52,640 bases of DNA, from NCBI GenBank assembly GCA_020832285.1, contig JAFIFB010000084.1:1-52640 (forward strand). Reading direction: 5' to 3'. Both the position numbers and the translations under genes were made by a program. How positions within the stretch are numbered: the stretch's first letter is position 1; every line of letters begins with the position of its first letter. The DNA is from Balneolaceae bacterium (GTDB lineage Bacteria; Bacteroidota; Rhodothermia; Balneolales; Balneolaceae). The notes below the pieces were generated by a model. That model was not told the DNA's origin and did no database searches. It was given only the letters and a program-made list of their open reading frames with translations. Shown piece by piece: positions 17,195-35,283 of this stretch.

Positions 17195-20100
17195 ATGTAC
17201 ATTTCTGAACTCGAATTACACGGCTTTAAAAGTTTTGCCCATAAAACACATGTAAAATTTGATGACGGCATCACTGCAATCGTTGGCCCGAACGGATGTG
17301 GTAAATCGAACATTGTAGATGCCCTGCGATGGGTTCTCGGCGAACAGCGACCCACTCTGCTTCGATCCAGCTCGATGAGCAATGTTATCTTTAACGGAAC
17401 AGCGAAGAAAAAGGCTTTGGGCATGGCTGATGTATCTCTCACCTTCGTGAACGACAAAGGCATACTTCCGGTCGAATATAGCGAGCTGACCATCACTCGG
17501 AGGCTCTATCGTTCGGGTGACAGCGAATATCTCATCAACAACACATCCTGCAGACTCAAAGATATAATGGATTTGTTTATGGACACAGGGATGAGTTCAG
17601 ACGCCTATTCCGTAATTGAGCTGAAAATGGTTGAAGAGATCCTGAATGACCGAAACAATGACCGCCGCCGTCTATTTGAAGAAGCCGCCGGAGTTACCCG
17701 TTACAAAGAGAATCGGAGACAAACTATCCGGAAGCTGGATGAAACCCTGAAAGACCTTCAGCGGCTGGAAGATATCCTGGTGGAAATTCGAAAAAAAACA
17801 CGCTCCCTCGAAATACAGGCAGAGAAAGCTGCAAAAGCCAAAAAGTTCAGGGCTGAACTGGAACAACTCGACAAGGCGTATACTCTTCACGAATATAACA
17901 CCATTAAAGTGGAACTGGAGCCGCTTGAAGCCCGCATCAAAAACGCTGAAAAAGAGAAAAAAGAGGTAGGCGAACGAGTAAATGAACTGGAAGAAGCCGA
18001 AGAGAAAGCCCGTGCCAGATTGCTCGAAAAAGAACGGAACGAAGCCGAAGCTAACCGCCGTGTTAGCCAGCTCCATTCCACCATCAGAGAAATGGAAACA
18101 TCGCTTAAAATTAACCGGGAAAAAATTGTAAATGAAGAAGGTGTCATCAATCAGCATCAGTCAGACATCGAACAGAGCAACATCGACCTTGACGAACTCG
18201 AAGTATTAAAAGCGGCCAGTATTAAAAAACTGGAAGGATTCTCGGATGAAATTGAAACGTCGAAAAAGAGCCTGAGTGAATCTAAAAGTACATTCTCCGA
18301 AGTTCAGCAGAAGTTTACAAGGGTGCGCCACGAACTTTATGAACGGGAAATTGCCATCAGTGATGCCAACAAAAAACTCACCGGACTCCAGACAAGCCGC
18401 ATCAAGCTGGAATCGAAACTGGAGAGCAGTGAAGATGATGAACTGCGAATAGCCCGCGACATCGAAAATTTTGAAGATGAAATTCTGAATGCCCAGGGGG
18501 AACTGAAACTTGTCAAAGAGAAGGCTGACAACATAAACATCAGAATAGAAGGACAGGAACAACTGCTGAAACAAGCGAGCGATAAACGCACCGAACTCGA
18601 AAACCATCGGGAATCATTGCGTGATTCCATCCGAAGTCTCAAGAGCAGCAGGGATGCCGTTCAGTCTGAAATCACTCTTTTAAACAGTATTGCCGAATCG
18701 AATGAAGCGATGCCATCATCGGTGGCTTACCTGATAGATAATCACTCTGAAGCTTTTGAGCTTTTGATACCTGTCGGTGAAATATTACAGACCCGTGAAG
18801 AGTACACCGCAGCTTTGGAAGCGGCACTGGGCGATGCAGTCAACTATCTTGTCACCGGCTCGATGGCAGATGCCAGACACGCTTCTGATATCCTTAGGGA
18901 GAACAAAAAAGGTCGGGCAACTTTCATTCCTCTGCACGAATTGAAAGAAACGTACCCGGCTGAGACCGCATCCATTTTGCAGTATGTTCAGTTTGATATG
19001 CCGTTTAAAAAGGTAGCAGAACTTCTTCTGGGGCAGGTTTTACTGGCTGACAACCTTGATGAAGCAGGAGCACTTTTGCAAAGCGGAGGTTCATCGGCGG
19101 TTACATCAGAAGGTGATCTAATCACCTCCGAACGGATTCTGAAAAGCGGCAGCCGTAACCAGCAGGCTGGTATTCGTCTTGGACTGAAAGACAAACTTGA
19201 AAAACTGGGTAAACAGCTTGCCGAAATTGAGAAGTCTCTTCAAAAAGAAGTACAGAACCTTGAGAAAAATAGTGAAAAGCTAAAAGAGATAGACCAGGAA
19301 TCGATCCGAAAGGAGATCCGTGATTTGCAAAAATCTGCACGGGAACTTGAACAGAAAATGAGCCGCTATCAGTCAAGTATTCAGGTGTACGAGAAAAACA
19401 TTGCCGAACTGAATACCCGGAAAGAGTCAATGGCGGGCAGTCGCGACCTGGCTGAAGAGGAGCTTGAAAACCTCCAACCGCAGCAGAAAGAGCTTCAACA
19501 AAAAATTTCGGGCCTGGGACGGCAGCAAGAAGAGAAAAAGAAAACTCTTCAAAAACTTGAAGAACAGCGCGCCATTGCCCAAAATCGCTACAACGACGCT
19601 CAGCTTAAACACCAGGATCTGAAGAACAAAACTGACAACCTTGGCCGCGATGTTGAACGGGCAGAGTCGGGCATTGCCAATATGAAACAGCGGCTGGAAA
19701 CCCGCAGTGAACTGCTCGGCAAGAGCCGTGATAAAATTACTGCGTACAAAAAAGAAATTGAAGAAACCGAAAAAGAGCTTGAAACAACACGGCTACAAAA
19801 AGCCGCGGCAGACACCAAACTGGAAGAAGCGAGAGAAGAGAGCAGCCGTATGCGTGGTCAGATCAACGAAATTGAGAAGGAGCTGAAAGAGCTGAGACGG
19901 CGGAAAGAGGTGAACCTGGAGCTGGTTCATCACCTCACGATGGCTAAAGAAAAATTCGAAATTCAGGCTCAGTCTCTCTCCGACCACATCTGGGAAACCT
20001 ACGGTATTTTGATGGACCAGGTAAAAGAGAAACTACCCGAAGATCTTGAACCGGATGAAGCCAAAGCCAGAATTGGCAAACTCCGGCAAAAACTGAACCG

Positions 20101-20716
20101 AATCGGGGATGTTAATCCGCTGGCCATAGAAGAGTTCAAAGAAGAGAAAGAGCGGCTGGAATTTTATGAAAACCAGATTGATGATCTCCATCAGGCAGAA
20201 AAAGAGATGCGGGAGACGATCCGTGAGATTAATCAAACCGCAACTGAACGTTTTAATGAAACATTTGAGAAGATCCGGCAAAACTTTCAAAGTGTATTTC
20301 ACACGCTTTTTCACGAGGATGATTATTGTGACCTGTTGATTGAACAGGATGCCGAAGATCCCCTGGAGGCAAAAATTGAAATTAAAGCCAATCCGAAAGG
20401 GAAGCGGCCCTCGAGTATCAATCAGCTTTCCGGAGGGGAAAAAACGCTGACAGCCATCGCACTGCTTTTTGCAATCTATCTTGTAAAGCCATCCCCTTTC
20501 TGCGTTCTGGACGAGGTGGACGCCCCTCTGGATGACGCCAATATCGAACGATTTTCACAAATGCTGAAAAAATTCAGCCAGGAAACTCAGTTCATCATCA
20601 TCACACATAATAAAAAAACCATGTCGAAAGCGGAGATGATGTATGGCGTTACCATGCCCGAAACCGGTGTAAGCCGCCTTGTGGGTGTGAAACTTGACGA
20701 GGTAGCAGCGGTTTAA
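17195..20716 (+). CDS. smc: Chromosome segregation protein SMC
   Basis: A 1173-residue SMC ATPase, which forms a ring with ScpA/ScpB to organise and segregate chromosomes. Walker A is GPNGCGKSN at 31-39. A very long coiled coil (about 160-500 and 660-1000) flanks the hinge at about 510-660. The ABC signature LSGGEKTLTA is at 1078-1087, followed by Walker B CVLDEVDAPLDD. Both coiled arms are rich in Glu, Lys, Leu and Arg as expected. Length is full. scpA and scpB are not adjacent. Start ATG at 17195, where MYISELELHGFKSFA matches the family N-terminus. Confidence 0.97.
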   Translation: MYISELELHGFKSFAHKTHVKFDDGITAIVGPNGCGKSNIVDALRWVLGEQRPTLLRSSSMSNVIFNGTAKKKALGMADVSLTFVNDKGILPVEYSELTITRRLYRSGDSEYLINNTSCRLKDIMDLFMDTGMSSDAYSVIELKMVEEILNDRNNDRRRLFEEAAGVTRYKENRRQTIRKLDETLKDLQRLEDILVEIRKKTRSLEIQAEKAAKAKKFRAELEQLDKAYTLHEYNTIKVELEPLEARIKNAEKEKKEVGERVNELEEAEEKARARLLEKERNEAEANRRVSQLHSTIREMETSLKINREKIVNEEGVINQHQSDIEQSNIDLDELEVLKAASIKKLEGFSDEIETSKKSLSESKSTFSEVQQKFTRVRHELYEREIAISDANKKLTGLQTSRIKLESKLESSEDDELRIARDIENFEDEILNAQGELKLVKEKADNINIRIEGQEQLLKQASDKRTELENHRESLRDSIRSLKSSRDAVQSEITLLNSIAESNEAMPSSVAYLIDNHSEAFELLIPVGEILQTREEYTAALEAALGDAVNYLVTGSMADARHASDILRENKKGRATFIPLHELKETYPAETASILQYVQFDMPFKKVAELLLGQVLLADNLDEAGALLQSGGSSAVTSEGDLITSERILKSGSRNQQAGIRLGLKDKLEKLGKQLAEIEKSLQKEVQNLEKNSEKLKEIDQESIRKEIRDLQKSARELEQKMSRYQSSIQVYEKNIAELNTRKESMAGSRDLAEEELENLQPQQKELQQKISGLGRQQEEKKKTLQKLEEQRAIAQNRYNDAQLKHQDLKNKTDNLGRDVERAESGIANMKQRLETRSELLGKSRDKITAYKKEIEETEKELETTRLQKAAADTKLEEAREESSRMRGQINEIEKELKELRRRKEVNLELVHHLTMAKEKFEIQAQSLSDHIWETYGILMDQVKEKLPEDLEPDEAKARIGKLRQKLNRIGDVNPLAIEEFKEEKERLEFYENQIDDLHQAEKEMRETIREINQTATERFNETFEKIRQNFQSVFHTLFHEDDYCDLLIEQDAEDPLEAKIEIKANPKGKRPSSINQLSGGEKTLTAIALLFAIYLVKPSPFCVLDEVDAPLDDANIERFSQMLKKFSQETQFIIITHNKKTMSKAEMMYGVTMPETGVSRLVGVKLDEVAAV

Positions 20717-20800
20717 TAGTACCAGCCCTTCTTTCGTTTTTCAGGCTTTTAAACCAGCCTTAAATTTTTTATTTCCATACTAACCTGATTTCTTGTCATC

Positions 20801-20838
20801 TGTAAAAGTGTTAGAGTCATCGATTTATCTTTGAGTCA
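20801..20838 (+). repeat. Short copy of TATCTTTG-ended hairpin repeat
   Basis: This reads TGTAAAAGTGTTAGAGTCAT, then CGATTTATCTTTGAG. It has the left end of the 52517 copy and the right end of the 22872 copy but lacks the ~75-bp middle, as if internally deleted. AAAAGTGTT and AACACTTTT flank it as a hairpin. Confidence 0.55.
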
Positions 20839-20927
20839 ACACTTTTTTTTGTTTCAGAAAAAATATCACTTAACCTTAAAGGAGATTTTTTGACTGCGGT
20901 TACTTTGAGATTTCTGAACCTGATATT

Positions 20928-21041
20928 CTCATCTCGGTGTTCTGTTCTGAAACGGGTTATGGTTTGATTGCTTTTATGTGTGGTTATGTGCAGTGGAGCA
21001 GCAATATAGAACGTTACACAGCAGAGCAGTGCAACAAGAAT
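20928..21041 (+). repeat. Interspersed ~115-bp repeat, copy 1
   Basis: Runs from CTCATCTCGGTG through ACGGGTTATGGTTTG to GAACGTTACACAGCAGAGCA. It matches 23222-23340 in the same order, including GTGCAG-GGAGCAGCA and the CGTTACACAGCAGAGCAGTG word. Function unknown. Confidence 0.7.
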
Positions 21042-21284
21042 AAATTGATCAGTGTTTGATTATCAAATACACAATGATACCAATCTGTTTTATAACCCTT
21101 CATTAAGATCAGAAAATCTCATCTGTGAATACTACAGATATATAATTGTTTTAAGATCAGTCAAAAAACTTCCAGAAAATTTATACATTCTCATCAATCA
21201 ATTCTTTTAACTTTTTTCTGATTTAAGGATCTTGAGGCAATTCACAATCCGGCTTTTTATTTAAAAAAAGCAAAGCCAGCCCTC

Positions 21285-22169
21285 ATGAAATATCATTACT
21301 TCGATAACCTGCCGGCAATAAAACTTCCAAAACAATCTACTACACTGAATCAGAAGGTCTGGCACTACATACCCGAAACCGTTCCTGAAAAACTGTTCAT
21401 TGGTAAAATCTGGAAAACCTGCGGAGCATCGGATGTTACACGGCTAGAGACGGTACTGCCTAAAGGAACGGTCGAAATTGTTTTCAACTTTTCGGATGGT
21501 ATCACCTTCAGAAAGTTCGGGAAAAAAACCTCAAGCCCACTCCCGTCTGTATTTGTTAACGGTTTAAATTTTTCTCCGGTTCATGTATCCCTTCCAAAAG
21601 GCCAGCACTATTTTGGCTTGCAGCTTCACCCCTGTGCACTCCCTTCTCTTTTTGACCTTACTTTGGAGGAGTGCAATAATAAGATACTGGGAAAGGAAGT
21701 TCTCTGTAAATCTCTGAATAAACTTGCCGAACAGCTCTCTGAAACTCAACCCTTTATGATGCAGGTAAACCTGGTTCTGAACTGGTTAGACAAAAAACTT
21801 TCCGAATGTTACCTCGATATGGATATTTACAGGAGAATACTGTCTCTCCATCTCAATCAAAATATCATTCACCTGTCAGTACGAAAACTCGGAGAAGATT
21901 ATTCTTTGTCTGAACGACACCTCAGAAGACTTTGCAGACATTTTTTAGGCCTCTCTCCAGAAAAACTTATTCTCTACAAAAAGTATCTGGCAGCACTTAA
22001 CCGCCTGCATTACTCTGATCAAAATCTTACTACCGTGGGGCTTGAATGCGGTTTTTATGATCAGTCTCACTTTATCCGGACATTCAAGCTGTTCACCGGA
22101 ATGACACCAGGCAACTACATCTCAAAGAAAGGGATAATTCCCGGCCATATTTTTGAAATTCCACACTGA
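21285..22169 (+). CDS. AraC-family transcriptional regulator
   Basis: A 294-residue protein with a C-terminal AraC/XylS double helix-turn-helix at about residues 195-285. The first HTH is around LSVRKLGEDYSLSERHLRRLC; the second, with the family signature, is GLECGFYDQSHFIRTFKLFTGMTPGNY. The N-terminal ~130 residues (LETVLPKGTVEIVFNF..., FVNGLNFSPV) match the sensor domain common in Bacteroidota AraC-type proteins (DUF6597-like), whose ligand is not known. It is followed 78 bp later by a small membrane protein on the same strand, a plausible target or partner. Start ATG at 21285. Confidence 0.9.
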   Translation: MKYHYFDNLPAIKLPKQSTTLNQKVWHYIPETVPEKLFIGKIWKTCGASDVTRLETVLPKGTVEIVFNFSDGITFRKFGKKTSSPLPSVFVNGLNFSPVHVSLPKGQHYFGLQLHPCALPSLFDLTLEECNNKILGKEVLCKSLNKLAEQLSETQPFMMQVNLVLNWLDKKLSECYLDMDIYRRILSLHLNQNIIHLSVRKLGEDYSLSERHLRRLCRHFLGLSPEKLILYKKYLAALNRLHYSDQNLTTVGLECGFYDQSHFIRTFKLFTGMTPGNYISKKGIIPGHIFEIPH

Positions 22170-22247
22170 TGTCCGACTCATACAATTTTTTTATTTCGGT
22201 CACAGACAACTTATCCTGGGTATAAACCATCCATACCTTAATTCGCT

Positions 22248-22730
22248 ATGAATCTAAAAAATCTGATTTATGTCCTGACCTGTTTATTCTTCACAATGAT
22301 TTCCGGTGCTGCCCTTTACGAGCATATAGCTGTGGTTCCTCAATGGAGTGCAGCTCCACCGGCTTCACTGAGTATGTTCCAGGGTGAATATGGAATCAAT
22401 CCGGAGTCCTTTTGGATGATGATACATCCCGTTACCCTGTTGTTTATGATCACCACTCTCATTTTATGCTGGAAATCAGCACAACGGAAATACCTGCTGA
22501 TCACATTTTCGGGGTATATATTGATTCTGATTTCAACGGCAATCTATTTTGTACCAGAATTGATCGCCCTTACCACCATTGAGTTTAGCGAAACCGCTGA
22601 TGCTGAACTCACCGATCGTGCCGGTTTATGGGAAATAATGAGTATTATTCGCATGATCATTATAATGGGACTGGCTGTTGTCTTATTTTTCGGGTTGACC
22701 AAAAGTGATGAGAGACTGAAATCCGTTTAG
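22248..22730 (+). CDS. Small four-helix integral membrane protein (DUF1772-like)
   Basis: A 160-residue protein with about four hydrophobic segments (about 5-25, 57-77, 84-105, 133-153). A loop after the first helix carries YEHIAVVPQWSAAPPASL. This layout resembles DUF1772 proteins, a family of small membrane proteins often next to AraC- or TetR-type regulators; that match is from memory and moderate. It follows the AraC-type gene on the same strand. Its stop codon overlaps the edge of a GTGAATAATGCAGG-type repeat motif (22726-22744). Confidence 0.75.
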   Translation: MNLKNLIYVLTCLFFTMISGAALYEHIAVVPQWSAAPPASLSMFQGEYGINPESFWMMIHPVTLLFMITTLILCWKSAQRKYLLITFSGYILILISTAIYFVPELIALTTIEFSETADAELTDRAGLWEIMSIIRMIIIMGLAVVLFFGLTKSDERLKSV

Positions 22731-22871
22731 CCTGCATTATTCACATAAAATAGTTGACCGGCTTTATCACTATGTCCTTCAGTAAGAACCATCAAATAAT
22801 AATTATTTTATATAAAGTTTTGTCACACAAAGCGTACCGGGTGTTATATAATACCAGGCAGTGATCTCTGT

Positions 22872-22973
22872 GAGAGTCATCTGACGAGTCGATCCGGGAT
22901 TATCCCAATCATCTGAATTATCACATTATTCGAAAAACTCGTTTGATGACTTATCCGTCGATTTATCTTTGAT
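22872..22973 (+). repeat. ~100-bp hairpin repeat with TATCTTTG end
   Basis: The arms GTCATCTGACGAGT (22876-22889) and ACTCGTTTGATGAC (22937-22950) pair with two mismatches. Between them is GATCCGGGATTATCCCAATCATCTGAATTA, and the unit ends in CGATTTATCTTTGATT. TATCTTTG (22964-22971) matches the Bacteroidota -7 consensus TAnnTTTG, with TTTG (22942-22945) 18 bases upstream. Other copies: 31556-31634 and 52517-52633, plus a short copy at 20801. Confidence 0.75.
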
Positions 22974-23062
22974 TGTTTAGCCCGGACTTCTCACAGTAAG
23001 TATACTAAACGAAGTGAAAATTATTGATATATCGTATTTTATAATCCAAATTTTGAAACTTC

Positions 23063-23210
23063 AAATGAAGCACCCTGCTTTTCTGCGACATTTTCCCCTC
23101 AGCTTCGTTGAATCTAAAATAGCGTGCTCAACGTACTCAGGTACGTTTCCGCCGCTATTTTAACTTCGCCTTGCTGAGAAAAAAATCTCTTGGTGAGAAA
23201 TCCGGGTTAG
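23063..23210 (+). repeat. Repeat unit containing an ~80-bp hairpin
   Basis: AAATGAAGCACCCTG (23063-23077) and TCTTGGTGAGAAATCCGGGTTAG (23188-23210) are joined directly at 51512-51549 on the opposite strand. Here they are separated by 110 bp forming a big imperfect hairpin: CTCAGC/GCTGAG ends (23098, 23178), AAAATAGCG/CGCTATTTT, and a central ACGTA/TACGT. Confidence 0.7.
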
Positions 23211-23221
23211 TACTTGTTTTA

Positions 23222-23340
23222 CTCATCTCGATGCATGGCTCCGAGACGGGCTGTGGTTGCTTAATTGTTTTTTATGGTAATGTGCAGCGGAGCAGCATCA
23301 AAGAACGTTACACAGCAGAGCAGTGTAACGAGAGCAGAGC
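23222..23340 (+). repeat. Interspersed ~115-bp repeat, copy 2
   Basis: Homologous in order to 20928-21041. It contains a perfect 8-bp hairpin CGTTACAC/GTGTAACG (23306-23313 with 23323-23330) and is followed by extra GAGCAGAGTAACGAG copies up to 23352. Confidence 0.7.
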
Positions 23341-23446
23341 AGAGTAACGAGGATCAGTATATTTTAAAAATGCCTGCTGTTGGCTAATAATAGTAAACTG
23401 CTTCTGTGGCTGTCTCACGGAATTCAACTGCTTAACACAGAATAAC

Positions 23447-24400
23447 TCACTGAAGACGCGCCAGCTCCGCCTCTGCGGCGATGAATCCGAAAGAAGGCCA
23501 CTGGCCGGAATCGTAAACCAATTGCCAGATCTCCACGGCCCTCTCCTCTCTTCCGTTGATGTAGTGCCAGTTCCCAATTCCGTATCCCAGGGTCGCATTT
23601 TGAAGGGCATCTTCGCCAGACTCCAATAAACGATTGGTGTCAAAAACACCGTTAAAAACGAGAATCAGGTTCAGGTATACATCATTTTCCAGTAATTCGA
23701 TATCTGGCTGAATGTCGGCTATGGCCCGGCCCGCCTCTGTATCTTTGCCCATCCGCTTCAGTGCCATGTAATACCAGTAGAGCGTGGCAATTCGCATGTC
23801 ATCGGTCAGTTCAAGTTCCAAGGCCTTTTCGTATGCATCGGCGGCGTTTTGAAAATCACCTTTGGCGTAATAGGCCAGCCCCATGTGGTACCACACATTC
23901 GATTTGAGCGTACTTGTGGGAATTCCGGCGGGATTGGGCAGGCCGTCCGGCTCAACCTGGTCTTCCCGGTTTCGCATCAGGCTTTCTGCATTTTCTAAAT
24001 CACGGATGGCCATATCGAACATTCGCAGTGTAAGATAACGGTGCCCTCTGTGCCGGTACATACGCGGGTCTTCGGGATGTTTGAAAATTCCTTCGGTAAA
24101 AATTCTCACCGCTTCACGATATTCTCCCAGGTAGGCAGTTCGTCTTCCCAGCCAGATAATTACTTCGGGGTCTTCGGGGTCAACACGATAATCCATCACA
24201 GCCTGAAGGAGGTTGGTATTCTGTTCATCATAGGTTTGAGAATCTATTTCCGGGGTTCTGAGAGTATCGCCCAGCAGAGAATAGCCCTGTACTCCCGATG
24301 GAACCGGCGGCAGCTCGTGTGTCTCCTGGCAAGCCAGTAGAGAAAATGCAATAACTGTGATGGTACCGATAATTTTAAAGGAAACTGACTTGGTTTTCAT
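23447..24400 (-). CDS. TPR-repeat lipoprotein
   Basis: A 317-residue predicted lipoprotein (LLAC lipobox, Cys24 from the chosen Met), so probably anchored in a membrane facing the periplasm. From about residue 70 onward it carries tetratricopeptide-type helical pairs: PEVIIWLGRRTAYLGEYREAVRIF, PRMYRHRGHRYLTLRMFDMAI, and VWYHMGLAYYAKGDFQNAADAYEKAL. The frame could begin eight codons earlier at 24424. I prefer 24400 because MKTKSVSFKI gives a normal signal length; neither start has a clear Shine-Dalgarno sequence. Function beyond a likely protein-protein interaction is unknown. The M28 peptidase lies on the same strand 140 bp upstream. Confidence 0.85.
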   Translation of the reverse strand: MKTKSVSFKIIGTITVIAFSLLACQETHELPPVPSGVQGYSLLGDTLRTPEIDSQTYDEQNTNLLQAVMDYRVDPEDPEVIIWLGRRTAYLGEYREAVRIFTEGIFKHPEDPRMYRHRGHRYLTLRMFDMAIRDLENAESLMRNREDQVEPDGLPNPAGIPTSTLKSNVWYHMGLAYYAKGDFQNAADAYEKALELELTDDMRIATLYWYYMALKRMGKDTEAGRAIADIQPDIELLENDVYLNLILVFNGVFDTNRLLESGEDALQNATLGYGIGNWHYINGREERAVEIWQLVYDSGQWPSFGFIAAEAELARLQ

Positions 24401-24539
24401 ATCAATGTTTTGTTTTCTATTCATCTGACATCTCTCATAATGTGATTTAAACTACAGAGTGGGTTTGTTTGTATATTATTTATTGTTACTAAAGATAATA
24501 TTATAATGGCCCTTAAGCCCCTCTTGCCTGTATCGCTTC

Positions 24540-25796
24540 TCAAAAAACGACTGTCAGTTCAATTTCTTCTTCTCCGCGGAGTATTCGGACAGTCATTTCA
24601 TCCCCTTCTTCCACATCGCTCATCAGGTCCATATAATCATAAATATCGCTGATTTCCCGGTCTTCCATGCGGATGATGATGTCACCATCGATTATTCCGG
24701 CTTCCTCTGCGGAGTTTCCTTCCCGAACGGTTTCTATCCTGAACCCGTTACCAGACCATGTATAATCCGGAATCACGCCCAGACCAACGCCATCACGCCG
24801 CATCGTTACACCTCTCGGGTCGGTCGATTCTCTGAATTCGATCTCTTCCGGTGCTTTTTCATCCAGCAGCCGGATTGCCTGTTCCACATGCGCCAGCACC
24901 CATTCCATACCTTTGTAATTGATTTTATCGGCCGTGTCGGTGGCGCGATGATAATCGTCGTGTGTGCCAGTGTAATAGTGCAGTACAGGAATGTCCGCTT
25001 CATAAAAAGCGGCGTGATCACTGCTGCCCATTCCGCCGGGTGTACGTGTAATTTCCAGGGAATCTGCTGGCACTTCATCCAGTAGGTCATCCCATATATT
25101 GGCCGTTCCGGTTCCGAATATATTCAGCTCACCATTGCTCAGCCGCCCAATCATGTCCATATTGATCATAGCCATTACAGAATCCTTCGGCATCTCCATC
25201 TCTTCCACATAATGGCGGGCACCAAGCAATCCGAGCTCTTCACCGGAAAAAGCAACAAAAATGAGTGTATTTTTTGCCGGATTCTCTGCAAAACGACTGG
25301 CAAGCCACAAAAGCCCCGCGGTTCCCGAAGCATTATCATCGGCCGAGTTGTGAATAGCCGGTTCTCCTCCCGAATCCATCGAAATAAGTCCGCCCATACC
25401 CTGCCCGTCGTAATGCGCACCAATGATAATGTATCGCTCAGGATGTACCCGCCCGGGCACACCACCCACAATATTACGTGAGATGTGGTTTTCCACTTCC
25501 ATCAGCTGAGTAATCGGGCCGGTCAGTTCGAACTGCTGAACATAGGTCTCCATATTTACCATCGGCAGCAATCCGTAAAAAGAAAAACGGTCGGAAATAT
25601 AATTAGCTGTTTCGGCCTCCTGTATGGTTCCGGCCAGGCGTCCCTTCCTGGCATCATCTGCCAGCCACTCCACATGCTCTTTTAAAAATTCAGAGGTTGA
25701 TACTTCTGTGGCTTCCTTCTGGCATCCGGTCAGATAAACAACTGTTGCAAGTATTAGTAAACAGAGAGTTATACCGGAATTTCTGTATAAAAACAT
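24540..25796 (-). CDS. M28-family metallopeptidase with C-terminal PDZ domain, lipoprotein
   Basis: A 418-residue predicted lipoprotein (LTGC, Cys25). The M28 aminopeptidase-type dizinc site is laid out as IIIGAHYDG (His), NSADDNASG (Asp), FSGEELGLLG (Glu-Glu), INMDMIG (Asp) and the late GTHDDYHRATDT (His). The last ~90 residues form a PDZ domain (GFRIETVREGNSAEEAGIIDGDIIIRMEDREI). It probably degrades peptides in the periplasm or at the outer membrane. It is transcribed away from the thiamine-riboswitch gene, with a short shared promoter region between 25797 and 25861. Confidence 0.93.
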   Translation of the reverse strand: MFLYRNSGITLCLLILATVVYLTGCQKEATEVSTSEFLKEHVEWLADDARKGRLAGTIQEAETANYISDRFSFYGLLPMVNMETYVQQFELTGPITQLMEVENHISRNIVGGVPGRVHPERYIIIGAHYDGQGMGGLISMDSGGEPAIHNSADDNASGTAGLLWLASRFAENPAKNTLIFVAFSGEELGLLGARHYVEEMEMPKDSVMAMINMDMIGRLSNGELNIFGTGTANIWDDLLDEVPADSLEITRTPGGMGSSDHAAFYEADIPVLHYYTGTHDDYHRATDTADKINYKGMEWVLAHVEQAIRLLDEKAPEEIEFRESTDPRGVTMRRDGVGLGVIPDYTWSGNGFRIETVREGNSAEEAGIIDGDIIIRMEDREISDIYDYMDLMSDVEEGDEMTVRILRGEEEIELTVVF

Positions 25797-25861
25797 TGTT
25801 GATCTTTTTCTTGAAGCATACGGCTTTCCTGCCTATTTTTAAACAACTAAACCAATCAAAA

Positions 25862-25943
25862 GGTTGGGGGTGTCTCTGTTCATTGCAGAGGCTGAGATCA
25901 TACCCTGTGAACCTGAACCGGGTCATACCGGCGGAGGGAAACC
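25862..25943 (+). ncRNA. TPP riboswitch (THI element)
   Basis: The aptamer is recognisable by its conserved words in order: GGGGTGTC, GAGGCTGAGATCATACCC, GTGAACCTGAACCGGGTCATACCGGCGGAGGGAA. P1 closes with GGTT (25862-25865) against AACC (25940-25943). The CTGAGA and ACCTGA-type core needed for pyrimidine and pyrophosphate binding is intact. It lies ~80 bp before the start of a TonB-dependent receptor, which it should turn down when thiamine diphosphate is abundant. Confidence 0.95.
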
Positions 25944-25952
25944 GATCTGAAG

Positions 25953-25980
25953 CAGATGCGGGTTGCACGCATATCTGTTT
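25953..25980 (+). promoter_or_regulatory. Hairpin with short U-tract after the riboswitch
   Basis: CAGATGCG pairs with CGCATATCTG (two extra bases), followed by TTTTA. It could be a weak intrinsic terminator controlled by the TPP aptamer, or simply part of the switching region. The T run is only four long, so termination is uncertain. Confidence 0.4.
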
Positions 25981-25985
25981 TACCC

Positions 25986-26018
25986 CCTCCTTCAATCGCA
26001 GCACTTATTGAAAGGAGG
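25986..26018 (+). promoter_or_regulatory. Shine-Dalgarno-sequestering hairpin
   Basis: CCTCCTTCAAT (25986-25996) pairs with ATTGAAAGGAGG (26007-26018) with a one-base bulge, burying the strong Shine-Dalgarno AAGGAGG that sits four bases before the ATG at 26023. This is a textbook translational expression platform for the TPP riboswitch. Confidence 0.8.
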
Positions 26019-26022
26019 CATT

Positions 26023-28494
26023 ATGCTTAGACAAACAACAATTCTTTTCTTTTTTATCCCGTTTCTGGCGGGATTTTTCAGCCATTCTTACGCACAAACA
26101 ATCGAAGGCCGTGTAATAGATGCATCCACCGGACAATCTCTCGAGGGAGCATCTATTTTGGAAAGCGGCACCACCAACGGCACATCGGCCGGGACCGACG
26201 GCACATTTTCTCTTACGCTGATTTCTGATAGTAACGAGCTCACGGTCAGTTTTGTGGGATACCAGGCAAAAACCATCACAGTGACCGGTCCTGAAGATTT
26301 TATCGACATTACGCTTGAAGAGCAGATTTATCTTTCCGGCGAAGTATTTGTAAGCGCCCTTCGGGTAGATGATTCCACCCCGATCGCTTACAGCAATATT
26401 AGCCGGGAGGAGATCGAATCGAGAAATCTTGGCCAGGATATTCCGTTTTTGATCAGCTCAACACCTTCGGTGGTTTCCACTTCGGATGCCGGGGCAGGTA
26501 TCGGATACACCGGTGTTACAATTCGGGGTGTGGACTCCGGGCGTATCAATGTAACCATCAACGGAATCCCGCTGAATGATGCCGAATCACACGGTGTGTT
26601 TTGGGTAAATATGCCCGACCTGGCTTCCTCCACACAGAATATTCAGATACAGCGTGGTGTGGGCACATCCACTCACGGCGCGGGTGCTTTCGGAGCCACA
26701 ATGAACCTTCAGACCGCCATCATGAACCCTGATGCGTATGGAGAACTGAATACCGGCTTTGGCTCATACGGAACACGAAAAGCCAATGTTCAGCTTGGCT
26801 CTGGTATCCTGGAGAACGGATGGCAGGTGGAAGGGCGCCTCTCCAAAATTGATTCCGACGGCTACATCGACCGGGCTAGTTCCGATCTGCGTTCATTTTA
26901 TCTCTCCGGTGCGCGCCATGGTGACAGAAGCCTGCTGAAAGCCGATCTCTTTTCCGGCCAGGAAGTGACCTATCAGGCCTGGAACGGTGTACCCGAACCG
27001 ATTCTGAAAAACGACTCTTCCCAGCTTGAACATTACATTGCGCAACTCTGGCTGGGTGAAGAAGACGCAGCACACTGGCGCGAAAATATCGGCAACCGGC
27101 GTTTTAATGAGTTTACCTACGACAACCAGGTGGACAACTACCAGCAGGATCATTACCAGCTTCATTACTCCTATCAGGTAACCGACAGCTGGACCGCCAA
27201 CACCTCACTCCATTACACTTATGGACGAGGTTATTTTGAGCAGTTCCGTCAGAATGACCGGCTCTCAACTTACAACATCAGCCCGGTGGAAATTGGCGGT
27301 GAAGTAGTTGACCGGAGTGACCTTGTACGCAGGCGATGGCTGGACAATCATTTTTATGGTGGTGTTTTCTCAACCGAAATCAAACGCCCTGATGAATGGA
27401 ACCTCACATTCGGAGGAGGCTACAACGAATACGATGGCGACCATTTCGGTGAGGTGATCTGGGCACGTTTTGCCGGAGACAGCGAACTGGGTGACCGCTA
27501 CTACGACAACAACGGCTTCAAAACCGACTTCAATGTCTATGGCAAGCTCAATTACTACTTGAGTCCGTCACTCAACACTTACCTGGATTTGCAGCACCGA
27601 ACGGTCACCTACCGGTTTGTGGGGCTTCGCATCGACGGGATTACCGGAGAAGTTTCAGATGTATCACAGCGCGATCGTATCAACTTTTTTAATCCTAAAG
27701 CCGGATTGGTATACCGCTTTGGCGACGGGCACCGCACTTTTGCCTCGGTAAGCGTGGGCGGCAAAGAACCCACCCGGCGCGATTATGTGGAATCGACCGA
27801 AGAGAGCCGCCCTGATCCCGAGCGCCTTTATGATTTTGAATTTGGATACCAGGGTTCCTTTAATCGTTTTGAAGCGGGGCTGAACCTCTACTACATGCTC
27901 TACAAAGATCAGCTCATCAACACCGGGGAGGTAAACGATGTCGGCAATATTGTTCGTGAAAACGTACCCGACAGTTATCGGGCTGGTATAGAGCTGCAAC
28001 TGGGTGCCAGAATTCTGCCGCAGCTTCACTGGAACGGCAATGCCACGTTCAGCCAGAACCGAATTCGTGAATATGAGCATTTCCTGGATGATTTTGACCA
28101 GGGTGGCCAGCAGTCAGAAATCTACGATGATGTGGAAATCGCCTTCTCCCCTTCAGTCATTGCCAATTCCATATTGGCTTACCGCACCGGTTCTGTCACT
28201 ACCGAATGGATTTCGCAATACGTATCCAGACAATTCCTCGACAACACCGGAAACAGTGATCGTGCCATCGATCCATACTGGGTGAATAACCTTCGCTTCA
28301 GTTATGAATACGACCGTTTTCCGTACCTGAGAACGATTATTGCCTCCGTTCAGGTGAACAATCTGTTTGACAGAAAATACGTTTCCAACGGTTATACCTT
28401 CGGATGGATTTCCGGCGGTGAGGAGCAGTTTTTCAACTATTACTACCCTCAGGCCGGGCGTAATCTTCTGGTGAATGTAAAATTTGGGTTTTGA
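26023..28494 (+). CDS. TonB-dependent outer-membrane receptor, thiamine-regulated
   Basis: An 823-residue outer-membrane receptor. A signal peptide ends at SYAQ (about residue 25). Then come a carboxypeptidase-regulatory-like domain (26-100, GRVIDASTGQSLEGASI), a plug domain (about 115-235, VTIRGVDSGRINVTINGIPLND) and a beta-barrel ending in aromatic-terminated VKFGF. The start is the Met preceded by AAAGGAGG; a longer frame from 25963 would run through the riboswitch region. The TPP riboswitch upstream indicates uptake of thiamine or a related compound. Such Bacteroidota receptors (called OMR1 in comparative work) usually accompany inner-membrane PnuT-type importers, which are not adjacent here. 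Substrate assignment rests on the switch. Confidence 0.93.
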   Translation: MLRQTTILFFFIPFLAGFFSHSYAQTIEGRVIDASTGQSLEGASILESGTTNGTSAGTDGTFSLTLISDSNELTVSFVGYQAKTITVTGPEDFIDITLEEQIYLSGEVFVSALRVDDSTPIAYSNISREEIESRNLGQDIPFLISSTPSVVSTSDAGAGIGYTGVTIRGVDSGRINVTINGIPLNDAESHGVFWVNMPDLASSTQNIQIQRGVGTSTHGAGAFGATMNLQTAIMNPDAYGELNTGFGSYGTRKANVQLGSGILENGWQVEGRLSKIDSDGYIDRASSDLRSFYLSGARHGDRSLLKADLFSGQEVTYQAWNGVPEPILKNDSSQLEHYIAQLWLGEEDAAHWRENIGNRRFNEFTYDNQVDNYQQDHYQLHYSYQVTDSWTANTSLHYTYGRGYFEQFRQNDRLSTYNISPVEIGGEVVDRSDLVRRRWLDNHFYGGVFSTEIKRPDEWNLTFGGGYNEYDGDHFGEVIWARFAGDSELGDRYYDNNGFKTDFNVYGKLNYYLSPSLNTYLDLQHRTVTYRFVGLRIDGITGEVSDVSQRDRINFFNPKAGLVYRFGDGHRTFASVSVGGKEPTRRDYVESTEESRPDPERLYDFEFGYQGSFNRFEAGLNLYYMLYKDQLINTGEVNDVGNIVRENVPDSYRAGIELQLGARILPQLHWNGNATFSQNRIREYEHFLDDFDQGGQQSEIYDDVEIAFSPSVIANSILAYRTGSVTTEWISQYVSRQFLDNTGNSDRAIDPYWVNNLRFSYEYDRFPYLRTIIASVQVNNLFDRKYVSNGYTFGWISGGEEQFFNYYYPQAGRNLLVNVKFGF

Positions 28495-28515
28495 TCGCTG
28501 ACCTCAATATTATTC

Positions 28516-28554
28516 AAAAAAGTGCGGATTTTGTAATTCAGCCCGCACTTTTTC
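28516..28554 (+). terminator. Intrinsic terminator after the TonB receptor
   Basis: AAAAAAGTGCGG pairs with CCCGCACTTTTT around a ~14-base loop, giving a strong stem with a U-tract 22 bases after the stop. The symmetrical A/T flanks allow it to act on both strands. Confidence 0.85.
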
Positions 28555-28711
28555 GGCTTGATTTTCTTTCACTGAAATTAAACTGTCTTCTTTATTCTGC
28601 CTGCAGAAAATTTTCCACATCACACAATAAAAAATAGTTTATACTCTTATTTATGCAACTTTGAATTTTCAGTAACTTAGCTCATCCAAAAAATGTCTTC
28701 GCTGGAGTAAA

Positions 28712-29578
28712 ATGAAAACTTTGTTTGTCACTTTGTTCGTCTCGTCCTGCCTATTTTTTCCTGTTATTCTTTTTGCTCAAATCACCCCGGCCGATGTGGT
28801 AGTTGATTCAAATAAAACCGTTGAAATAACACTTGCCGACCGTTCAACACTCATCGGAAATATCATTTCAGTGGATGATAATGAACTGGAATTACGCAAA
28901 GATGCCACGAGGATTTTTGTGCAGCTGAGCCAAATCCGATCGATCCGTGAAGTTGATCTGACGCGAAAGGGAGCCCTCTGGTTTGAAAACCCCAATAACA
29001 GCCGCCTGTTTTTCTCGCCTACAGCACGGCCTCTAAAAAAAGGGGATGGATATTATCAGAATATATACGTGTTCTTTAACAACTTTGCCTACGCCGCCAC
29101 GGACAATATCGCAGTCACGGCTGGATTCACTCTATTACCTACAGTACGGCTTACAGAACAGCTCTATTTCCTGACAGGGAAATTTGGAATGGAGGTATCC
29201 CCCAACAATTATCTTGGCGGCGGCCTTGGGCTTGCCACCGCAGGAGGTGCTGATGAAGGCCTGGTAATCGGCTATGCTAACTACACACGCAGTTTTCACC
29301 GTGCAAGCCTCACTGGCGGTGTGGCCGGTTTTACTTTAAGCGATTCAGATGCCGGAACATACGCTTTCTACTTTGGCGGAGATTATCGAGTTTCACAAAG
29401 AGTGGCCCTGGTCACAGAAAATTTTATTTTCCCTGAATCTCCGGATCCATTCGGTATCTCCTACGGCGTAAGGCTGATGGGACAGCGTATGAGTTTTGAC
29501 CTCGCCTACTTCCAGCCCGGGCTGGGATCCGATGTAGGCTTTGGTATACCCTACGTGGATGTAGTCATCAATTTCTGA
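28712..29578 (+). CDS. Putative outer-membrane beta-barrel protein
   Basis: A 288-residue protein that I do not assign to a named family. A signal peptide ends near FAQ (about residue 24). Residues ~30-80 look like an Sm/SH3-like strand set (VEITLADRSTLIGNIISVDDNELEL) seen in some secreted Bacteroidota proteins. The rest (about 110-288) alternates hydrophobic and polar residues with glycines and ends in VDVVINF, consistent with a small outer-membrane barrel. It follows the TonB receptor but is separated from it by a terminator, so it is probably transcribed alone. The gene ends ten bases from the converging DUF2911 gene. Confidence 0.75.
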   Translation: MKTLFVTLFVSSCLFFPVILFAQITPADVVVDSNKTVEITLADRSTLIGNIISVDDNELELRKDATRIFVQLSQIRSIREVDLTRKGALWFENPNNSRLFFSPTARPLKKGDGYYQNIYVFFNNFAYAATDNIAVTAGFTLLPTVRLTEQLYFLTGKFGMEVSPNNYLGGGLGLATAGGADEGLVIGYANYTRSFHRASLTGGVAGFTLSDSDAGTYAFYFGGDYRVSQRVALVTENFIFPESPDPFGISYGVRLMGQRMSFDLAYFQPGLGSDVGFGIPYVDVVINF

Positions 29579-29588
29579 AAAAAATTTC

Positions 29589-30137
29589 TTACTCTTCCAC
29601 TGCAGGCACTTCGATGCGAACCGGAACTTTCACCGTATCCCAATGCAGCACGAGATAACCGGTGGTTTCGGTCACGTTTTCGAAGTAAAACATCATCTGT
29701 TCCATGGAATATGACTCTTCGGGCTGAACCGTAACGCGCAGTACATCTTCGGATTCATCATATTGGGTACCCCAGGAAAGCTTGTTGTTTATAATGATCA
29801 CCCACTCATTTGCTCCGGGTATAGTATATAGCGAGTAAGTACCGGCAGAAACTGCTTCACCCTCAATATATACATCATCAGAAAAAACAATGGCGGTCGC
29901 TTCGTTGGCGCCGGTTCTCCATACTTCATGGTGAGGCACCAGGCCGCCAAAAATTTCACGGTCGCGGACACCCGGCCTTCCGTAAGTAAGATAAACTTCG
30001 GTCAGCCCGATGGTTTGGGCTACGGACGCATTGGGACTTGCCCAGACACGGTCGGTCGTACGCTCCTGTGCAGCAGCATTTTGAGTGAGAAAAATTCCGG
30101 TAAATAGCAGTAAAATAGCAGTTAGCAGGGTTTTCAT
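29589..30137 (-). CDS. DUF2911 domain protein, secreted
   Basis: A 182-residue protein with a signal peptide (cleavage after QNAAAQ, about residue 24). The mature part matches DUF2911: WASPNASVAQTIGLTEVYLTYGRPGVRDREIFGGLVP, HHEVWRTGANEAT and TYSLYTIPG, ending in a strand-rich domain. The family is common in secreted Bacteroidota/Balneolota proteins and has no established biochemical role. It converges with the barrel gene (10 bp apart) and lies downstream of msrA on the same strand, though 100 bp apart. Family match is confident; function unknown. Confidence 0.88.
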   Translation of the reverse strand: MKTLLTAILLLFTGIFLTQNAAAQERTTDRVWASPNASVAQTIGLTEVYLTYGRPGVRDREIFGGLVPHHEVWRTGANEATAIVFSDDVYIEGEAVSAGTYSLYTIPGANEWVIIINNKLSWGTQYDESEDVLRVTVQPEESYSMEQMMFYFENVTETTGYLVLHWDTVKVPVRIEVPAVEE

Positions 30138-30237
30138 AAGCTTTTGTAAAATTAAGACCTCATGTTGATGTTTGTTCGTTGCAGGATCAAAAGAGACTGG
30201 AAATTATCACCGGTCAACTCTTCAGACCTGCTGCCTA

Positions 30238-30846
30238 TTATAATGACTCTTGAAGTAAATGTGGAAAATCTTTTTTGAATTTGGCTAATTTAGGTGCAAT
30301 TACAACTGAACAATACCCCGCATTCGGGTTATTATTGAAATAGTTCTGGTGATAATTCTCTGCACGGCTGTAGTTTGTAAGCTCGGTGATTTCCGTTACG
30401 ATAGGGTCATCCCACAAATCGGATGCATCGGTTTTCTTCAGTGATTTTTCCGCAATTGCTTTCTGTTCTTCGTTTTTATAGAAAATAGCCGAACGATATT
30501 GCGGACCTACATCATTGCCCTGGCGGTTCAGGGTGGTTGGATCGTGTGTATGCCAGAAAACTTCAAGCAACTCTTCGAACGAGATCACATCGGGGTTAAA
30601 TTCCACGCGTGCAACTTCAGCATGTCCGGTTCTCCCCGTGATTACCTGTTCATAAGTGGGATTAACCACATGGCCGCCGGCATAACCCGACTCCACAGCC
30701 GTAACACCGTTCACGCGCTGGTAAATCGCTTCAACACACCAAAAACAGCCCGCTCCAAACACAGCTACTTCGGTTTTTGGTTCTGATAATTTATCTGATT
30801 CTGGCATAACTGAGAAAAGAGAGGTTAAAATAATTAGCAAATTCAT
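30238..30846 (-). CDS. msrA: Peptide methionine-(S)-S-oxide reductase
   Basis: A 202-residue repair enzyme that reduces the S-epimer of methionine sulfoxide. The catalytic GAGCFWC motif carries Cys34 (with Cys37), followed by GYAGGHVVNPTYEQV and a FWHTHDPTTLNRQGNDVGPQYRS segment, both diagnostic. The first 13 residues (MNLLIILTSLFSV) are hydrophobic but short. The true start may be the next Met at 30807, giving the usual cytoplasmic form; neither start shows a Shine-Dalgarno sequence. No msrB is nearby. Confidence 0.94.
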   Translation of the reverse strand: MNLLIILTSLFSVMPESDKLSEPKTEVAVFGAGCFWCVEAIYQRVNGVTAVESGYAGGHVVNPTYEQVITGRTGHAEVARVEFNPDVISFEELLEVFWHTHDPTTLNRQGNDVGPQYRSAIFYKNEEQKAIAEKSLKKTDASDLWDDPIVTEITELTNYSRAENYHQNYFNNNPNAGYCSVVIAPKLAKFKKDFPHLLQESL

Positions 30847-30870
30847 GGCTGTACAAGTTTAGTTACTTAA

Positions 30871-30898
30871 CCTGCACTATTGTGAATAATGCAGGTAA
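30871..30898. repeat. Palindromic copy of the GTGAATAATNCRGGTTA motif
   Basis: CCTGCACTATT (30871-30881) pairs with AATAATGCAGG across GTG with one mismatch, giving a tight hairpin just upstream of msrA. Confidence 0.6.
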
Positions 30899-31118
30899 TC
30901 AGTGAAGAAACGCAAATCACAGTAGAAACGTGCCGGTCGATGCAGTTTTTATTGAACAGAAAAAAGACGCTTACCGTATAATATAAAATCAGTAACAAAT
31001 CTGCTATAATCACAAAGTTTCCATGTATCATGTCAACGATAGAGTGATTATAAGGTTCCCTCCGTTGCGCCTCTTCGCGACCTTTTGCGGTTTTCTCCCC
31101 TGTATCATCCCCTCCACC

Positions 31119-31287
31119 GTTTTCCTTCCCGGGTTTCAACAACATCCCCTCGAAACTGTCTGTTGCTTTTTCAAAACGACTCGGGGTGTATTTTTGTCCC
31201 AATTGACCCCAGGGCGACGTTCGCGATGCCTGCCATCCGAAGCTTTAGCGTAGGCTGGCTCACTCTGCCCCGGCCTGCTCTTCGAAG
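31119..31287 (+). repeat. Decayed ~170-bp repeat, copy 1
   Basis: Shares with 52360-52494, in order: TTTTCCTT-CC-GG-TTTCAA, AACA-CCCC-CGAAACT, GCTTTTTCAAAA, then GCCTGCTCTTCGAAG at the end. The middle differs. Copy 1 holds a CCGAAGCTTTAGCGTAGG stretch. Confidence 0.6.
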
Positions 31288-31555
31288 CATTACTGCGTTC
31301 GGAAAGCTTTGAAATAAGGACTTCGCGTAGTAGAGGCTGTGTTATGGCGCCCTTTCAGGGCTTGGATTCGTTCCATTAAATTGAATACGTTGCATAAAAC
31401 AGTGAAGATTTATTTTTTGTGTGGGATAGAAATAGAGGAGATGCCAGAGTTGGCAACCAGTATTTTTCCTGGCCGAGACCATTTCGGAACGAAGCGATGA
31501 TCCTGGGAAAGCCCGGTTTTAGAGCTCACTACAGCCTCTCCTTCATTAATGATGG

Positions 31556-31634
31556 AAGAGCATCTGACAAGCCGAGCCGGGATCATCACAATCATCTGAA
31601 TTAACTCATTTTGCGAAAAATATGACCGATGACT
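31556..31634 (+). repeat. Degraded copy of the ~100-bp hairpin repeat
   Basis: AGCATCTGACAAGCCGAGCC, then GGGATCATCACAATCATCTGAATTA and GACCGATGACTTAAC match the 22872 and 52517 copies. The TATCTTTG end is missing, so the promoter-like box is lost here. Confidence 0.65.
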
Positions 31635-31647
31635 TAACTTAATCAGA

Positions 31648-32853
31648 TCACCTGTCAAACAGCGGCAAAATCCGGATTGAAAGAAGTCCGCAAAGAATAC
31701 TCGAAACGATTGCCAGCATCAGGATAGAGTTCATCGTAAAGGCCGCATCGAGCATCCAGCCCACAAGGAACGGGCTCATGGCAGTGCTGAACACCATTAC
31801 AGTGGCAAACATGCTCTGCACCGTCCCGATCAGCCGGGTCCCGTACATTTCGGCAAAAAGAGCCGATTTGATCGTACTGCCGATTCCCATCGTCACTCCG
31901 ATGAGTCCCATGTAGACGAATGCCGCCCATGAAGCTGAAAAAAGATAAGCGATAAATAGCCCGCCAATCATCGGAACCAGTAAAAACGGAAACAGCGCCT
32001 TTGCAGAAAATCGATCGATAAGAGGACCGGTAAATATGCCTGCGATAATTCTCGTCACCGCAAATGCCACAAATGCAGAGGCGATCAGTGCGGCAGTCCA
32101 GCCGAGAGCTTCGGCAGCAGCCACCTGGTAGAGAAAAAGTCCGGTCACCCAAAAAGGCGGAATGAGTGTAGCGGGCAATACATAAAAAATGCGGTGATCA
32201 CTCAGAATCGTTTTGTAATTTTCTTTGGCGGTTCCGATTTCTCCCTCCTCATCGGGCTCATCTTCCACAATATGTTTCTCCCTGCGAATAAGCAGCCAAA
32301 GCACAGGAATAAAAACCAGTGCAATAACTGCCGCAATGATTCCCCAAGTGGTTCGCCAGTGAAAAACCACCAGCATAGCAGCGATCATTGACGGAAGCAG
32401 TGCTTCACCCAGCGGGTAACCCAGTGAAGAAATACTAAGAGCTTTTCCGCGCTGTCCGTCGTAGTATCTGGCCATGGTAGCCTGTGCAGTATGACTGCTA
32501 AGCCCCTGCCCGGAAAGCCTGAGAAGAATCAGACTAACAAATAACATGGCGATGTGCCAGGAAATGGCCATCATCGCGCTGGCAAACAGTAAACCGGCGG
32601 CAACATACATACTGTACTGGCGCAGCGGGATGCGATCGATCCACTGTCCAAGCCACGGCAGAGCAATTGCGCCGGTGAGTGTGGCAGCGGAGTAAAGTAC
32701 TCCGAATGAGGCGTTGCTCATATCAAACGCCACGAGGAAATAGGGCACAAACAGTGAAATTAAAAAGGTTTGCCCAAAACTTGAGAAAAATGTAAAGGAT
32801 ACTGCAAAAGAAAGAAGTCGTCTCTCTTTCAATGCAAACGTCAGGTAAGACAT
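31648..32853 (-). CDS. Major facilitator superfamily transporter
   Basis: A 401-residue inner-membrane carrier with about twelve hydrophobic helices in two halves separated by a charged cytoplasmic loop (about 195-215, REKHIVEDEPDEEGEIG). Typical MFS elements are visible: a loop 2-3 motif near WLGQWIDRIPLRQYS and an equivalent GPLIDRFSAKALFPF in the second half. The substrate cannot be read from the sequence; the overall pattern (RYYDGQRGKALSISSLGYPLGEA) resembles MFS members of the monocarboxylate/nitrate-like branches, which is only a loose hint. It is a single gene, transcribed divergently from pyrG. Confidence 0.92.
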   Translation of the reverse strand: MSYLTFALKERRLLSFAVSFTFFSSFGQTFLISLFVPYFLVAFDMSNASFGVLYSAATLTGAIALPWLGQWIDRIPLRQYSMYVAAGLLFASAMMAISWHIAMLFVSLILLRLSGQGLSSHTAQATMARYYDGQRGKALSISSLGYPLGEALLPSMIAAMLVVFHWRTTWGIIAAVIALVFIPVLWLLIRREKHIVEDEPDEEGEIGTAKENYKTILSDHRIFYVLPATLIPPFWVTGLFLYQVAAAEALGWTAALIASAFVAFAVTRIIAGIFTGPLIDRFSAKALFPFLLVPMIGGLFIAYLFSASWAAFVYMGLIGVTMGIGSTIKSALFAEMYGTRLIGTVQSMFATVMVFSTAMSPFLVGWMLDAAFTMNSILMLAIVSSILCGLLSIRILPLFDR

Positions 32854-33041
32854 AACTAATACTGGTAGTTCAGGTCGTTTTAAAAATTCACCTTAAAAAT
32901 ACCAAAAAAACGCCTCAATTGTTCCAGAACCAATTGTTTTTTGGCAATTTTTACCCGAAGCGCTTCCACTTTTATTTAAATAAAATAACTCTTGAACATG
33001 ATTTTTTTTAAAGATTTCAGTTTTGGTTTGAATGGTACTGA

Positions 33042-34730
<1,689 letters not shown>

Positions 34731-34731
34731 T

Positions 34732-35205: not shown

Positions 35206-35283
35206 TCAGACAGTGGCTCTAACATTCTTGCAGAATGAATGTCCGCAGTTCATTTCTTATTTTTGTATCAAAACAGACTGTTA

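Follow-up and report, generated by a model that had tools for sequence, protein, structure and literature searches.

A TPP riboswitch with a conserved Shine-Dalgarno sequestor probably controls translation of a putative outer-membrane thiamine receptor in Balneolaceae

When a thiamine diphosphate (TPP) riboswitch precedes the gene of an outer-membrane receptor, by what means does it act on that gene, and what does the receptor carry? The question is raised by a 52,640-nucleotide contig of a Balneolaceae bacterium (JAFIFB010000084.1; hereafter the window, by which we mean the whole of this stretch), which belongs to a 5.33-Mb, 99%-complete genome (G000). An aptamer of the TPP family at 25856-25956 is followed here by an open reading frame (ORF) at 26023-28494 that encodes 823 amino acids, both on the + strand, as are all leader features described below. 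The ATG occupies 26023-26025, and the product carries an N-terminal CarboxypepD_reg-like domain (PF13715), a Plug domain (PF07715) and a TonB beta-barrel (PF00593), all above the Pfam cut-offs. The latter two domains identify it as a TonB-dependent receptor, and no TonB subfamily of NCBIfam was matched above its cut-off. We analysed the aptamer match, the conservation of a Shine-Dalgarno (SD) sequestor, the complementarity of the switching strands and the gene contents of related genomes, all by computation. Our conclusion is that a translational OFF switch probably sets the level of an outer-membrane thiamine receptor, with a symporter taking the vitamin onward across the inner membrane, and that switch and receptor together add a well-supported new member to a known type of system.

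The only Rfam match above the gathering score in the whole window is RF00059 (TPP), at 25856-25956 (+). Scored by cmscan, it reached 66.8 bits against a gathering score of 54.3 (E 5.2e-11) and covers model positions 1-105 of 105, in line with the original prediction of a complete aptamer. The core helices run from the GGUU of P1 (25862-25865) to its AACC (25940-25943), CUGAGA is kept together with the other conserved elements, and TPP binding is predicted. Across genomes, RF00059 elements are linked to genes of thiamine synthesis or uptake. In the family, 24 of the best 30 switch loci adjoin a relative of the window receptor, some of them only 30-36% identical to it, and of the remaining six the three that were scanned (L084, L089 and L093) have a hydroxyethylthiazole kinase as the next gene. 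A variant TPP-like group beside stress-type genes, described further below, counts against this link.

What lies between the aptamer and the gene suggests control at the ribosome-binding site. The SD sequence AAGGAGG (26012-26018), directly before the receptor gene, is part of the 3' arm of a hairpin, ATTGAAAGGAGG (26007-26018), and pairs with the 5' arm CCTCCTTCAAT (25986-25996). With this platform folded alone, the unpaired fraction of the SD is 0.002, and none of 40 shuffles closed it as well. For comparison we assembled 45 Balneolota leaders (the window, 20 named loci and 24 other genomes) and used 40 of them, leaving out four that have no GGAGG-ATG by pattern (L020, L013, L087 and L091) and one identical to another; each leader was shuffled 40 times with its dinucleotides kept. 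Closure of the SD beat the shuffled median in all 40 leaders and was matched by at most 2 of the 40 shuffles in 28. Folding without the aptamer closed the SD of 38 of the 40 leaders (unpaired fraction <0.1, median 0.002). The pairing itself recurs in all 40 leaders with both arms covarying: the stem changes between clades (UUCAAU/AUUGA, AUUAAU/AUUAA, CUUAU/AUAAG, UCAAAUU/AAUUU) around a near-constant CCUCC/GGAGG core, and the arm pairs delimited by folding number 27 distinct ones, some different in length alone. These leaders thus share an SD-hiding helix with compensatory change, and the hairpin that the original prediction had proposed to bury AAGGAGG was recovered at exactly the same positions.

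Three observations weigh against this reading of the leaders. In the remaining 12 leaders, between 3 and 17 of the 40 shuffles were equally closed; the 40 leaders are related, not independent; and five of them (L085, L100, L102, L104 and L110) precede receptors just 30-36% identical to that of the window. Taken together, the data leave the SD sequestor well supported. As a separate observation, the L102 and L104 leaders are nearly like that of the window (CCCCCTCCTTCAATCG...), yet their receptors are 32-36% identical to the window's over the part compared, as if leader and receptor had separate histories.

What might the receptor carry? Its closest named relatives are from Balneolaceae, a metagenome-assembled genome at 79% identity and, among cultured bacteria, Rhodohalobacter sulfatireducens and R. 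halophilus at 72-73%. The closest precedent is OMthi (BT2390) of Bacteroides thetaiotaomicron, which passages of Costliow and Degnan (PMC5613172) describe as likewise a TPP-riboswitched TonB-dependent receptor, predicted to take up thiamine, in related Bacteroidetes. A TPP switch upstream across homologues is a feature that the window receptor has too: in the best 80 of at least 591 confirmed receptor stretches, every receptor is preceded by a TPP-type match, no more than ~410 bases away, and 63 of these matches score at least 47 bits. The switch model used, R1, derives from the window and other Balneolaceae switches, possibly including genomes also among the 80. Six of the 80 loci, most of them from Pedobacter, have a clustered ThiE-type gene after the receptor, in five as the next gene; the three members scanned all match TMP-TENI. 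These homologues, and the retention of the receptor in the genus reported below, support the proposal that it takes up thiamine or a precursor. Two points count against a thiamine receptor: 17 of the 80 loci have only a weak match before the receptor, at 30.5-39.4 bits, and passages of PMC5613172 report that single deletions of OMthi or pnuT left the growth of Bacteroides unchanged.

Some homologous loci have consecutive TPP-type matches before the receptor, two in L032, L049, L056, L060, L066, L070, L083, L068 and L078 and three in L026. The first seven of these, from Pedobacter, Pelobium or Sphingobacteriaceae, are weak matches, and the doubled matches are possibly tandem, degenerate switches. 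Another locus, L116 (G020:C9), has TPP switches at 4037 (+) and 10007 (-), ~6 kb apart, each before a different TonB receptor, the second of which is 27.6% identical to that of the window. The Protein Data Bank was uninformative on cargo; its two distinct related sequences (E up to 0.001) both match the N-terminal domain.

The gene contents of the genus narrow the choice of cargo. We sampled 13 genomes, that of the window included. The receptor is present at E <1e-150 in 12 of them (the one without it is 62% complete) and thiamine pyrophosphokinase (TPK) in all 13. ThiC was found in none of the 13 and ThiG in none above its cut-off, with four weaker matches. Judged from these gene contents, bacteria of the genus seem unable to synthesise thiamine, and most of the genus appears limited to importing thiamine and adding the diphosphate, so that thiamine itself is the favoured cargo. 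The alternative that the receptor instead imports a phosphate ester, or HMP or thiazole as a precursor, we regard as unlikely. It draws on the window genome and G019, which keep ThiE-like genes and, in a TPP-switched operon, ThiL-like genes, and on four other genomes of the genus whose partial TMP-TENI matches exceed the Pfam cut-off. In the window genome this operon follows a second TPP switch (G000:C28:26341-26445; L114 6298-9446, minus strand) and comprises methyltransferase, ThiL-like, ThiE-like and Trm112-like genes; the ThiL-like and ThiE-like members are divergent, all members fall below the NCBIfam cut-offs, and the genome has no ThiC or ThiG matches. However, a full-length ThiE match occurs in the window genome and G019 alone; ten of the other genomes have only partial TMP-TENI matches (~107-180 of 180) and one has none, and receptor and TPK are kept nevertheless. 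One such partial match in the window genome, the only genome in which one was scanned, is moreover HisF (273.8 bits to His_biosynth against 38.3 to TMP-TENI), and its sole ThiD-family match is a PfkB sugar kinase. Operons reading like the one on contig C28 were also seen at L127, L129 and L130.

If thiamine is the cargo, a second transporter would be needed beyond the outer membrane, and none was found beside the receptor: the 12 neighbouring ORFs scanned (17195-36954) are without a thiamine-family Pfam match, in agreement with the original prediction that the receptor stands alone with no thiamine gene adjoining. A PnuT-type importer with its own TPP switch, which the same prediction had proposed to look for elsewhere in the genome, did not turn up; PnuC/PnuT family members are absent from all 13 genomes, so that the inner-membrane partner of OMthi is missing here. 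In all nine TPK loci of the genus that were fetched, a sodium:solute symporter (SSF) gene directly follows TPK (L182 7264-9281 on G000:C102, L142-L145 and L183-L186), and the three symporters scanned score 86-89 bits to PF00474. ThiV-type sodium:solute symporters are assigned to thiamine or precursors by comparative genomics, and there, as here, an SSF transporter adjoins a thiamine gene. In other genera of the family, TPK lies within 1.5 kb in 8 of 20 PnuC-family loci. The symporter is a candidate thiamine importer that likely takes the inner-membrane step, and its place where PnuT would stand looks like the substitution of one importer for another. The nine symporter loci contain no TPP match, the 30 PnuC-family loci that were retrieved have none in their 1.5-kb flanks either, and Rfam gives three TPP matches in total in the window genome, so the outer-membrane step and the C28 operon would be what answers to TPP here.

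Two other transporter genes were considered and set aside. An MFS gene at 31648-32853 has a relative close to the receptor in six of the homologous loci (80 in all), but no TPP match precedes it and it reaches no specific NCBIfam cut-off. A YfcC-like transporter gene beside the C28 switch is divergent from that switch, which reads into the operon on the other strand.

How, then, would the anti-SD arm be kept from the SD when TPP is scarce? The original prediction gave no ligand-free alternative. We found that the 5' strand of aptamer helices P1 and P2, AAGGUUGGGGGU (25860-25871), is complementary to ACCCCCUCCUU (25982-25992), on the strand that forms the anti-SD arm as well; the two are paired in the free fold of a longer leader, and the computed duplex of the 5' strand has -16.9 kcal/mol in the window. 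Folds and the comparison of the 40 leaders point to ACCCCCUCCUUCAAU (25982-25996) as a shared switching strand, which contains the stretch with which the aptamer 5' strand would pair as well as the anti-SD arm (25986-25996). The median SD-free fraction was 0.002 with the aptamer closed and 0.229 with the anti-sequestor arm held, and holding an equal-length block elsewhere as a control gave 0.002 (no control block fitted in five leaders). In 38 of 40 leaders, all except L015 and L108, the anti-sequestor arm overlaps at least three of the SD partners. Where the 5' strand contains GGGUGC (23 leaders), the platform pairs with its own 5' strand at -20.2 and with 5' strands of the other type at -14.3. 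The register of the pairing varies by clade, with GCAAG..ACCUCC facing GGGGGUGCUUGC, AAGCACCUCC facing GGGGGUGCUU and GUACAGCGCC facing GGUGCUUGUAC; L011 and L016 share the AAGCACCUCC arm, and L013 reads GACACCUCC.

Several results speak against an exclusive switch of this form. Even with the arm held, the SD is more than 0.5 open in only 4 of 40 leaders and gains more than 0.3 in only 11. The SD of the window is only 0.055 open in the free fold, where it is bound instead by the beginning of the coding sequence, and in a shorter fold ending at 26040 GGGGGU/ACCCCC and the sequestor form together. L004 is reversed, with an SD-free fraction of 0.160 in the free state and 0.192 with the aptamer closed, so that its fold gives no sign of a switch. 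Leaders that lack GGGUGC, 17 in number, have no preference for their own 5' strands (-17.5 with their own, -19.5 with the other type). Compared with shuffled leaders, the complementarity of the 5' strand has a mean z of -1.6, falls below -2 in 13 of 40 and stands at -0.4 in the window, since any C-rich platform pairs with a run of G. The arms overlap in nearly all leaders, but the z values are modest and the absolute opening of the SD is low; because of the small SD gain, the weak z, L004 and the 17 unspecific leaders, we consider an anti-sequestor formed by the aptamer 5' strand likely, a step below the well-supported sequestor.

The ligand-free partner of the arm could alternatively be the 3' end of the aptamer, GGAGGG pairing with CCCUCC, as in simpler sequestor designs. 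The window does have complementary GGAGGG (25933-25938) and CCCUCC (25985-25990), with a 3'-strand duplex of -13.8 kcal/mol. Most Balneolaceae aptamers inspected, however, carry GUAGGG or GAAGGG at this position, and in 37 of 40 leaders the platform forms a stronger duplex with the 5' strand than with the 3' strand (mean -19.0 versus -10.3 kcal/mol), which makes pairing through the 3' end improbable and leaves the 5' strand as the preferred partner.

The original prediction also noted a hairpin with a short T run between aptamer and sequestor, and it exists in the window (~25953-25977, followed by TTTT, the whole spacer element spanning 25953-25981), where it could serve as an intrinsic terminator by which TPP stops transcription before the gene; yet it has only four T, the one terminator-like site found is within chance (mean 0.6 in shuffles), T4 precedes the arm in just 2 of 40 leaders and the conserved element is instead the SD hairpin. 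The T run being unconserved, a terminator is therefore very unlikely, and translational control is the better reading.

Under translational control, the following sequence of events would link the switch to thiamine uptake. At low TPP, the P1/P2 5' strand of the aptamer (25860-25871) would pair with ACCCCCUCCUU (25982-25992), keeping the anti-SD arm off AAGGAGG and allowing ribosomes to start. With enough TPP, the aptamer would close P1 and P2, and the freed arm (25986-25996) would fold onto the SD (26007-26018), so that receptor synthesis stops. The receptor would carry thiamine across the outer membrane, the symporter encoded beside TPK elsewhere in the genome would probably move it across the inner membrane, and TPK would convert it to TPP. 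In this scheme we infer the identity of the ligand, the direction of the response, the cargo and the role of the symporter. Extending it to Balneolota thiamine receptors at large, we tentatively suggest, at slightly less than an even chance, that without ligand the aptamer gives up its 5' half (the 5' strands of P1, P2 and, in some clades, P3), which then holds the anti-SD arm in clade-specific registers (ACCCCCUCCUU, GCAAG..ACCUCC, GUACAGCGCC, AAGCACCUCC), and that the receptor feeds a PnuT-free salvage by symporter and TPK in an auxotrophic genus.

The scheme shares its parts with known systems and rearranges them. In Escherichia coli thiM, as described in parts of PMC3280964, the same TPP aptamer brings about sequestration of the SD upon ligand binding, and TPP-free thiM forms P2 and P3 with P1 mispaired; the ligand-free pairing proposed here uses the 5' strands of P1 and P2 instead (and of P3 in other clades). 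The logic is also that of the ribosome-binding-site OFF riboswitches in the relevant part of Barrick and Breaker (2007; PMC2258182), with mutually exclusive antisequestor and sequestor, but here we propose the aptamer's own 5' half as the anti-sequestor strand. On the side of transport, passages of PMC5613172 place OMthi, PnuT and Tnr3 of Bacteroides under TPP switches and have OMthi sometimes split off, so that OMthi, like the window receptor, can stand away from its inner-membrane partner. The genus of the window differs from the OMthi system in having no PnuT and in pairing TPK with a sodium:solute symporter. As a stand-in for BT2390 we took the receptor of L219, an operon of OMthi layout (TPP match, receptor, TPK, PnuC-family gene). 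This receptor and that of the window share only 26% identity over 788 amino acids, and the L219 protein has no N-terminal CarboxypepD_reg-like domain, so the systems would be of the same kind and the receptors of different subfamilies; judged through L219, the window receptor is apparently of another subfamily than OMthi. In the literature searched, PMC5613172 is the only paper that we recognised as treating a TPP-switched TonB receptor.

Further TPP and TPP-like elements were seen in the genomes examined. At L117 (G052:C39, 5001 onward), a TPP switch precedes genes for thiD, tenA and a YkoE-type permease (Pfam), in a genome that has the switched receptor as well (L118). The TPP-like variant occurs in the window genome at G000:C56:2833-2954 (L115, L156) and also at L119, L120, L122, L128, L131 and L157-L162. 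It has an extended covarying P1 (~12 pairs), mostly ACUUGA for ACCUGA, and (GAA/GUA)AGGAAA near the 3' end, and 7 of 12 variant loci reach the RF00059 cut-off. The genes near some of its copies are not thiamine genes: cpn60 chaperonin and a P-type ATPase (L115), a DksA/TraR zinc finger (L122), a phosphoribosyltransferase (L119) and citrate synthase (L128). The next ORF of at least 70 amino acids is on the opposite strand at 8 of 12 variant loci, and a strong hairpin with a T run lies within ~60 nt of 7 of 14 elements (all but one of the 14 best R2 matches, together with G015/L164, which is more ordinary). These variants may act on their own as small RNAs that sense TPP, or as switches with long leaders. 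In the window itself, the ORFs at 22248-22730 and 28712-29578 have no Pfam match at all. No viral contigs were found.

The locus bears on two aspects of thiamine biology in these bacteria. Passages of PMC5613172 leave the mode of action of Bacteroidetes TPP switches uncertain and report transport operons without significant transcript change; the SD sequestor of Balneolota would explain this transcript silence of the Bacteroides transport operons if translation is what those switches control too. In addition, a complete route of thiamine salvage, by TonB receptor, SSF symporter and TPK, is suggested by the locus in a genus whose 13 sampled genomes have no ThiC and no ThiG above the cut-off.

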